Assembly (NCBI GenBank): GCA_903871855.1
Contig: CAIQIK010000019.1
Location: forward strand, 1-64,000
Reading direction: 5' to 3'
DNA length: 64,000 nucleotides
From: an uncultured Caldisericota bacterium
Lineage (GTDB): Bacteria > Caldisericota > Caldisericia > Cryosericales > Cryosericaceae
The translations under genes were made by a program, and so were the position numbers. Below, one piece after another: positions 24,564 to 27,736 of this stretch (within the stretch, counting starts at the first letter, position 1; the number at the start of each line of letters is the position of its first letter). Under the pieces are notes generated by a model that worked only from the letters and a program-made list of their open reading frames with translations, was not told the DNA's origin and ran no database searches.

Positions 24564-24935
24564 ATGACTTTTGCTATCGAGCCGGCTGAGCCCGTCACTG
24601 TGGAAGTGGCGCTCGGCTGCGGCACCTCGCGGACCGTAACGGTCCACTGGGAGGCGGGGACGTTGTACGCGCGCGCAGGCTCAGAGCCTCAGATCGCGTT
24701 TCAACCGTCCCTTGAAGCATGGAAGCGTTTCTGGCGTGCCGTCGACAAGGCGAATGTCTGGAACTGGGGTCGCGTGCAGCAGGCCGACCAGCCTGTGTTC
24801 TGGCGAATCGCACTGGATAGTGGTGCGAAGCGTGTCACTGTCTCTGGTCAGTTGAGCACAAGCGACGAGTTCAAGACGTTTGTGCGCGCTCTCAGGAAAC
24901 TGCTTCCCGGTATCAGCTTCCCCTTTTCCACGTGA
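24564..24935 (+). CDS. Hypothetical protein upstream of the DUF4209 gene
   Basis: A 123-aa soluble protein of alternating strands and a Trp-rich centre ([17 protein letters not shown] at about 52-68), ending in a helix [13 protein letters not shown]. No domain recognised. AAGGAGG lies 5 nt before ATG. The next gene starts 35 nt after its stop, so the two probably form an operon and may work together; an antitoxin or chaperone-like role toward the HEPN protein is only a thought. Confidence 0.7.
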
Positions 24936-24970
24936 TATCTCCCACACCACCCATCCACCCGGAGGAACCC

Positions 24971-27736
24971 GTGTCAATCACCAGATTCGTCATCAAGAAA
25001 GAAGACATCGACCGCACAGCCTGGCAACAAGTCTTGGTCGAAGCTGACCAGAAACTGTGCTCGGTGTACGCCAAACTGTTCTACCAGCGGGCGCAGGAAG
25101 CAGGCAAGGCGCATGACTCGCGCACAGAGGCCGTCTACACGTTCCTCGGTGCCGTCGCTTCGCCCGAACTCAAGCTCGAGACCCCGTCGCGCGACCCATT
25201 CGTCCCCGCCGCTGATCTTCAGTACTCGCGCACGCCGCTCCCTGAAGACTTCTCGACCGACGAGCTGCGCGTGATCAAACAGCTCATCGAGACCGTCCAG
25301 GACGCGGAACTGCGGTCCCGCCTGGCCGACATCCTCTGGGTGCGTCAGGGTGACGCCGGTGTCGCAAGCCTGGCTGTCGACAGCTATCTGAGCAGCGCCC
25401 TTCATCTCAAGGACGTCGTTCAGTGGGCGGATGGTTACGATCGCCTGAAGCGTTCCTTCGACATCGCCGTCTTCCTGGGCAAGGAGACCAAGGCATACCG
25501 CAAGACCATCGACTACCTTCAGAAACAGCTTAGTGAGTTTGGCACTGAGGAGCCGACGCCCTGGTGGGCCAAGCTCATCAACCTGCTGCTGGACGCCGGC
25601 GAAGGCAACGCCTCCCGGTTTGCCAGCATCTGCGGGACAAGCGCACAGCATTGCGAAGCCGCCGGACAGTGGGAAACCGCCCGCCTGTACTGGCAGGTCA
25701 AAGCTCGTTGCGAAACTGCCGCAGGGCAGGACAAGAACAGGGAAATTGCTCTCAAGCGCGCCGCCGACACCTACATCAGGCAGGCCGACGTCGTGCAGTC
25801 TGAAGCCCAGCCCATCACTGACCACGCACTGGAACTGATGCGCAGCGCCATGGAATCGCTTGCCAAGGTCCCGGGCAACGAACAGGCTGTCATCGAGCTC
25901 AAGAAGCAGGTCGATGCGCTCGAGCTCAAGCGCAACGATGCTCCCATGAAGAAGCCGTCGCGCATGGATCCGGCCGGAATCACTCAATGGGCACGTGACC
26001 AGGTCAAGAACAAGAACCTGCGCGGAGCCCTGGTTGCTCTCGCCAATCTGGCCGAAACACCCAAACCAGCAGAACTGGAGGAGCAGGTCGACGCCAAGAC
26101 GGGCCGGATGCCGTTCCAGTACCTCATTAGCACTGTCGGAATGGATCAGGAGGGAAAGGCTGCCTCTCACGCTCCCGCCGCCTTCACGGGCGACACCCGC
26201 GAGATCCGCACGGCCAAGGAAGCCGAACTGTACCAGGAGGCTGCCCGCAACCGTCAGATCGCCGTGCTCGCGCTGCTCGATCCCGCTCGTCGTCAGGTCC
26301 TGTCAGAACATGTCGTCAGACTGGATGACTGGCGTGCCTTCACGACAGATAACCCATTCGTGCCTGTCGGCCGCGAGGAGATCTTCGCCCGTGGCATGGA
26401 TGCCGGCATGAATGGCGATTTCCTCGTTGCAGTCTCACTGCTGACGCCGCAGGTCGAAAATGCCGTACGCTTTGTCCTGAAGAAGGCCGGCGTCGTCACC
26501 AGCAAGATCGATATGCGCAACGTCGAGCAGGAGCGCGTCCTGGGAGCCCTGTTGGACATGGACGAAGCTGAACGTGTTTTCGGGCGCGACCTCATGTTCG
26601 ATCTCAGAGGCCTGCTTGTCGAGAAGTTTGGCTCCAACATGCGCAACGAGCTGGCTCATGGCCTTCTGGACCTCGATGACTTCAAGGGACCCGATGCTGA
26701 ATATCTGTGGTGGTGCGCTCTTCGCCTCATGTTCCTTCCATCGCTGGAGGGAGTAAAGACCGACCTTTCGCGCCTCCGTCCTGGGACACCCGCCCGCCAG
26801 CAACCCGATCTGATCGACGTGCATGGACATATCCATCATCAGGAAAACGGTGTGGCTGAACCCGCGGTGGCTGCACAACCGATCATCACCGCTCCTGCAC
26901 CTGCTCCCGTTCAGGCCGCCGCCCCGTCCACAACGCCTCAGCGTGCTCTTGAGCATGACCGCGGCCGTAGCAGAGGGCGTGGCCGCTTCGAACACCGTGA
27001 CCGGGAACAGAGACCGATGACGACGAGCGCAACTGCTCCGGTGTCCGCACCCGTACCAACGCTCGTGACAACCAAGCCGACACTCACTCCTGTCATCCAG
27101 GCTAAGTCCACCTCATCCACGACGCCTCAGCGCCCTGTGGTCGAGACCCCCGCCGCAAAATCTGTGAGCTCCACCAAACCCGCCCGCGACTTCCGCGCCG
27201 AAGTGCGCGCAGCGATGGCAGCAGCCGGTCTTGTCTCGCCCACAGAGACGAAGCCCCAGCAGCAACCTGTTGCCAGCCCCGCCAAAGTGCGTCCCTCGGA
27301 GAAGCCCAGACCCTCCGCTGCCGTGACCACTCCCGTCGCCGCTCCTTCCCACAGACGCGGCCGCAGACCATCGCACGCGGCGATCACTGAGGCAAGACCA
27401 GCACCACAGACTTCCAGCATTCCAAAGCCCCAGGCCAGGATCGCACCGGAGGTCGCCGAACAAAAGCATGTCGGGACAAAGGCCTCCACGAAGAATGCTC
27501 CACAACGCGGGCAGCAGCCAGTAACGGCAGCCAAGCCGCAGCACGGACCAGCAAAACCAGTCGAGAAGAAACCGCCGGCAGCGAACAAGGCTCCCGTCAT
27601 CAAAGGTGGAAAGGAAGCCCTGAAGGTAACTGCTCCGAAGCAAGGACCAAAACAAGTTGCACAGACTAAGAAGACTCCCGCGAAGCCCCAGCACGGACAG
27701 AAGGCTCCCAAGCCGGGGGCGAACAGCACGAAATAG
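24971..27736 (+). CDS. DUF4209-type HEPN protein with long basic disordered tail
   Basis: A 921-aa protein. The helical N-terminal 600 residues end in a DUF4209-like segment: [18 protein letters not shown] followed by the HEPN signature RNELAH (Arg558, His563; R-X4-H). HEPN domains of this kind are known or predicted RNases. Residues about 620-921 are low-complexity, rich in Ala, Pro, Lys, Gln and Thr, with an RG patch (GRSRGRGRF) and repeated KPQHG and RRGRR, resembling the RNA-binding tails of RNase E. Start is GTG at 24971 after GGAGG; an upstream GTG at 24932 has no site. The RNase role is inference from family and motif. Confidence 0.75.

Follow-up and report, generated by a model that had tools for sequence, protein, structure and literature searches.

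The HEPN superfamily includes DUF4209, placed in it as the C6orf70 (C6orf70/ERMARD) family, whose members are predicted to be active and are seen in operons related to restriction-modification (R-M), and the motifs that define HEPN domains are Rx4-6H and Ex3[KR] (PMC3710099). In parallel, the PADLOC profile collection contains PDC-S39, which is only a candidate defence family and is unvalidated, as PDC families largely are (PMC12988326). A third system, related in design only, is RNase E, in which conserved microdomains are embedded in the disordered sequence of the C-terminal region (PMC4435900). Here we describe a gene pair on the forward strand of a 64-kb stretch of DNA, hereafter the window, from Candidatus Cryosericum (Caldisericota), a bacterium of permafrost and lakes. 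In this pair, a gene for a 123-amino-acid protein precedes that of a large HEPN protein with a long disordered tail. With C6orf70/ERMARD proteins the large protein shares a DUF4209 domain carrying both Rx4-6H and Ex3[KR], and also a helical, TPR-like region N-terminal to HEPN; the bacterial members of that family lie near R-M genes elsewhere. In contrast, the eukaryotic members carry a membrane segment, and no member reported in PMC3710099 has this small partner or a long tail of basic, disordered sequence. The match to PDC-S39 is nearly whole, and the peculiarities of the Cryosericum form are its tail, partner, structured leader RNA, metabolic neighbourhood, and vertical inheritance. The enzyme family is known; what is new is the vertically inherited form that has the tail, the leader, and the partner. 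We propose, with evenly balanced confidence, that a defence-type HEPN RNase (DUF7380-DUF4209, PDC-S39) was recruited in Cryosericum to a vertically inherited and constrained cellular role.

Only two Pfam domains stand above cut-off in the large protein, namely DUF7380 and DUF4209, the latter with 53.6 bits against a curated cut-off of 22.3, and the RNase E/G catalytic domain (PF10150) is not among them. The original prediction, made from the sequence of the window, had read an RNELAH motif within a DUF4209-like domain, had singled out His563, and had named a profile search as its check; that search recognises DUF4209 (E 2.4e-14), DUF7380 (2.3e-38), and PDC-S39 (6.6e-161, profile positions 8–584 of 595, nearly full length), and the motif indeed occupies residues 558–563, with His563 in its correct place. 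The prediction had overlooked DUF7380 and also the middle region, which is TPR-like by sequence, albeit weakly (best E 8e-4). Within the motif, R558-N559-ELA-H563 conforms to Rx4-6H with a polar residue after the arginine. R558 and H563, together with E496 and R500 of the Ex3[KR] motif and R117 and D120 of DUF7380, are unchanged across 53 aligned homologs, and the predicted catalytic residues are all invariant within Cryosericum. By its profile matches, the large protein is thus placed as a member of the HEPN family already described, and its motifs make it probable that it is catalytic, as a predicted metal-independent endoribonuclease. The AlphaFold model of the core is mostly confident and mainly helical to about residue 592, including the DUF4209 region. 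The open reading frame begins at GTG 24932, which yields a 934-residue reading (the PDC-S39 match covers residues 21–606 of it), but the likelier start is GTG 24971, giving 921 residues, because GGAGGAACCC stands immediately 5' of it with a GGAGG that is conserved across the genus.

The long tail is what sets this protein apart from its relatives. It has 315 residues, a net charge of +31, and a composition of 78% P/A/K/R/Q/S/T/V, and AlphaFold gives a predicted local distance difference test score (pLDDT) below 50 across nearly all of residues 593–921, the exception lying around a helix at 741–751. In all nine full-length Cryosericum orthologs the tail is present, with 264–328 residues and a net charge of +20 to +31, although only 41–71% identical between them, with ratios of nonsynonymous to synonymous substitution rates (dN/dS) of 0.2–0.6 where estimable. 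Outside the tailed group, we read 75 homologs, collected by scanning bacterial and archaeal genomes, plus viral contigs, and belonging to many phyla; they include a second copy from C. odellii. In every one of the 75, the extension after the core is of 44 residues or fewer, and the R-x4-H motif is found in the C-terminal part of 74, the frame of the remaining one (L083) being broken before the motif. The long tail is consequently new to the Cryosericum form of the DUF7380-DUF4209 family, and the earlier description of a basic, Pro/Ala/Lys-rich tail with an arginine-glycine (RG) patch, in an unusual combination with DUF4209, was borne out. A search for a relative of this tail among other tails of the same genome returned only itself.

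The genomic setting of these homologs is an argument for the main rival explanation, namely, that the protein is a fixed and normally quiet anti-phage abortive-infection RNase, whose helical region would sense infection and which would then cut host RNA, with the tail merely aiding binding and with the 123-residue protein and the leader keeping the RNase silent. Besides the PDC-S39 match itself, the homologs adjoin genes for type I specificity and restriction subunits, type III restriction-modification, integrases, Schlafen/AlbA, TIR, and AAA proteins, a list that is descriptive and makes no claim of enrichment over random genes. The second C. odellii gene (strain SMC5, L069:7737-9644) is tail-less and adjoins type III methyltransferase and restriction genes, and it falls in a clade apart from the tailed copies. 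Many homologs thus have the mobile defence-type neighbourhood that is typical of PDC-S39 (although it is not a requirement of membership), but the Cryosericum gene does not, being surrounded by metabolic and signalling genes. In the open-access literature searched, a single paper mentions DUF4209 and none DUF7380.

In Cryosericum the gene is inherited vertically and changes very slowly, which does not favour the anti-phage explanation. One syntenic copy is found in 10 of the 15 genus genomes, with fragments at a contig end in an eleventh (G007), and the order of small gene and HEPN gene is retained wherever it can be read; given this syntenic conservation throughout the genus, the gene pair and its tail are not due to chance. 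The tree unites the Cryosericum copies in a single clade with a long stem (1.77) and very short inner branches, the exact placement of this clade being unsure owing to the long branches. The core (residues 1–606) is 86–97% identical with a dN/dS of 0.03–0.06, which is lower than in any other coding stretch compared across the syntenic region, where credible neighbours have about 0.075–0.3, and about equal to that of RNase Y from these genomes (96.9% identity and 0.06 for RNase Y between G000 and G008). We therefore regard a fixed anti-phage RNase as possible but improbable, also considering that the PDC label is itself largely unvalidated, and we lean slightly towards a cellular role rather than defence. 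Of the original alternative of a house-keeping or defence RNase, the second half fits the appearance of the family elsewhere, and conservation and synteny in Cryosericum lean to a constitutive cellular function. The HEPN protein is not the sole endoribonuclease for want of others, given that RNase Y and RNase J are present in the genus, RNase J not being over the cut-off in the source assembly; RNase E/G was not found in five genus genomes, with a search whose control was positive in 6 of 14.

According to the recruitment that we prefer, a mobile defence-type gene would have passed, in Cryosericum, into vertical inheritance and a cellular function under strong constraint. Its alpha-helical N-terminal and TPR-like region may sense or dock partners, its C-terminal HEPN domain would cut the still hypothetical target RNAs, metal-free, by means of R558, N559, and H563 together with E496 and R500, and short motifs in the lineage-specific basic tail would hold the enzyme on RNA or on partner proteins. 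Judging by the composition of the tail, we consider its binding to RNA or to RNA-decay partners somewhat more probable than its not doing so. If true, this would show bacteria turning a candidate immune RNase to their own cellular RNA metabolism, in parallel to what has been proposed for eukaryotic C6orf70/ERMARD, and would mean that the "RNase core plus disordered hub" design known from RNase E arose twice. Since one genus contains both the tailed vertical form and the tail-less restriction-cluster copy, the contrast between the two is testable.

The operon would consist of a folded leader, the 123-residue partner, and the RNase. The conserved structured leader, which had been overlooked in the original prediction of the gene pair, whose two open reading frames are real, is gap-free in eight species with 0.06–0.12 differences per site, below the divergence of fourfold sites of the core (0.20–0.46; Fisher p 4e-5 to 1e-13). 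In 61 genomes, DNA and covariance searches located a single full copy per genome in eight of them, invariably at this operon. A coding sequence is rejected, since no three-base period is clear and, in two of the genomes (G004 and G009), stops occur in all three frames. Two base pairs of a hairpin (alignment columns 18–24/29–35) have changed on both sides in a compensatory manner, a number reached by 5 of 500 shuffles, with slid controls giving 0 or 1. The leader matches no Rfam family, and hence no known riboswitch or other known RNA, and a suspected likeness to guanidine-II loops did not hold up. RNase E is autoregulated through its 5' untranslated region (PMC10989929), and RNase E and RNase Y both govern their own synthesis via their transcripts (PMC10989929, PMC10303841), which makes RNase feedback on the leader a reasonable idea here. 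Most simply, the leader would control the expression of the pair, with the RNase itself perhaps cleaving or binding it; by this analogy we put forward autoregulation only tentatively, and a protein-binding or translational control element is an equally open alternative. If true, the leader would constitute a cis-acting RNA not described before. No good -35 element at standard spacing was found for the -10-like TATACT that precedes it, and the promoter scan did not list TATACT. Upstream of the leader, at 24331–24354 of the window, there is a terminator-like hairpin whose stem is retained in all seven aligned species.

The likeness to RNase E goes beyond the leader, for in both a disordered region with an arginine-rich patch and short conserved motifs follows the catalytic core (PMC4435900). 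The RNase E catalytic core is unrelated to the HEPN protein; of the "RNase-E-like" tail claimed originally, the likeness of composition and design stands and homology does not. Taken further, the HEPN RNase could stand at the centre of an RNA-decay assembly of the degradosome type in Caldisericota, as a convergence with RNase E, with a core and partner-binding tail motifs, feedback through the leader, and the 123-residue protein as a lineage-specific subunit, which we consider rather unlikely.

The small upstream gene is coupled to the HEPN gene as originally suggested, with fixed order and a constant spacing between its stop and the HEPN start, once per genome. This arrangement, and the fact that HEPN toxins of such a kind are common (PMC3710099), would suit a type II toxin-antitoxin module in which the 123-residue protein is the antitoxin. 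Against this, the protein belongs to no known family and matches no antitoxin or nucleotidyltransferase family, the lack of a nucleotidyltransferase domain excluding in particular a HEPN/MNT system. It is 81–88% identical between species and is confined to Cryosericum among the 49 class genomes searched, with none in the 34 outside the genus; nor was it found beside the 75 wider homologs, or in plasmids, the PDB, or PHROGs, so these searches rule it out as a widespread family. The homologs elsewhere are hence not restrained by such an antitoxin, and within the genus the pair is syntenic, not mobile, all of which leaves a toxin-antitoxin module quite improbable. The model of the partner, beta-beta-beta-alpha-beta-beta-alpha with low confidence (pLDDT 49), is too poor for a meaningful fold search, and the role of regulator that was suggested originally would be conjectural. 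Least probable of all is a non-cutting RNA-binding scaffold, for although non-catalytic HEPN domains exist (PMC3710099) and the tail has a scaffold-like look, none of the predicted catalytic residues varies in the genus, nor do R558 and H563 in the family.

Several observations weigh against the recruitment of a cellular RNase with the features proposed above. The fold search of the large protein returned helical-repeat proteins only, TPR proteins for the most part, at low template modelling scores (TM-scores) and E > 0.001, and thus its confidently modelled DUF4209 region has no independent match to the HEPN fold. Slow evolution and synteny show constraint, not function, and defence genes can be fixed too. 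The gene was not found in 4 of the 15 genus genomes; three of these also do not have either of the two flanking genes tested, so gene loss there is not implied, and in C. odellii (G006) the downstream flank is too close to the contig end to accommodate the gene on that contig. The case for RNA binding by the tail consists of its charge and RG content. As for the leader, its covariation amounts to two pairs in eight close species, and its folding is no more stable than that of shuffled sequences (z -0.6).

Table 1. Position of the features of the Cryosericum locus in the window.
Feature	Position	Strand	Remarks
TATACT, -10-like element	24423–24428	+	Invariant in alignment of 7 species; weak evidence
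Conserved structured mRNA leader, about 128 nucleotides	24435–24562	+	One copy per genome, only 5' of this operon
Small open reading frame	24564–24935	+	ATG start; 123-residue partner protein
Large open reading frame	24971–27736	+	921-residue HEPN protein: DUF7380 / TPR-like helices / DUF4209 / disordered tail
DUF7380 (PF24098)	24986–25492	+	E 2.3e-38; R117 and D120 invariant in 53 homologs
DUF4209 (PF13910), HEPN domain	26453–26725	+	E 2.4e-14; HEPN assignment from PMC3710099
E496-x3-R500, HEPN Ex3[KR] motif	26456–26470	+	Both residues invariant in 53 homologs
RNELAH, residues 558–563	26642–26659	+	Predicted catalytic R558-N559-x3-H563; R558 and H563 invariant in 53 homologs
Disordered basic tail, residues 607–921	26789–27733	+	pLDDT < 50; dN/dS 0.2–0.6; absent from homologs
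Tail island 1, 21 residues	26789–26851	+	Exceeds 95% permutation threshold for tail windows
RG/arginine-rich patch, 18 residues	26957–27010	+	Largely retained in genus alignment
Tail island 2, 20 residues	27176–27235	+	Exceeds permutation threshold; AlphaFold helix 741–751, sole predicted tail helix

In the vicinity of the operon, a gene at 21884–22966 of the window encodes a fusion of a rubrerythrin-like and a VIT1 membrane domain, and the slot between this VIT gene and the leader varies by species: here it holds a metallo-beta-lactamase-like gene (23122–23874), and in several other species (L017, L019, and L023) histidine-kinase homologs, with leader, small gene, and RNase remaining together. 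Further downstream, on the reverse strand at 35440–37776, a 779-residue protein with a short and weak match to the HerA/DUF87 ATPase is well conserved in the genus, with a dN/dS of 0.08.
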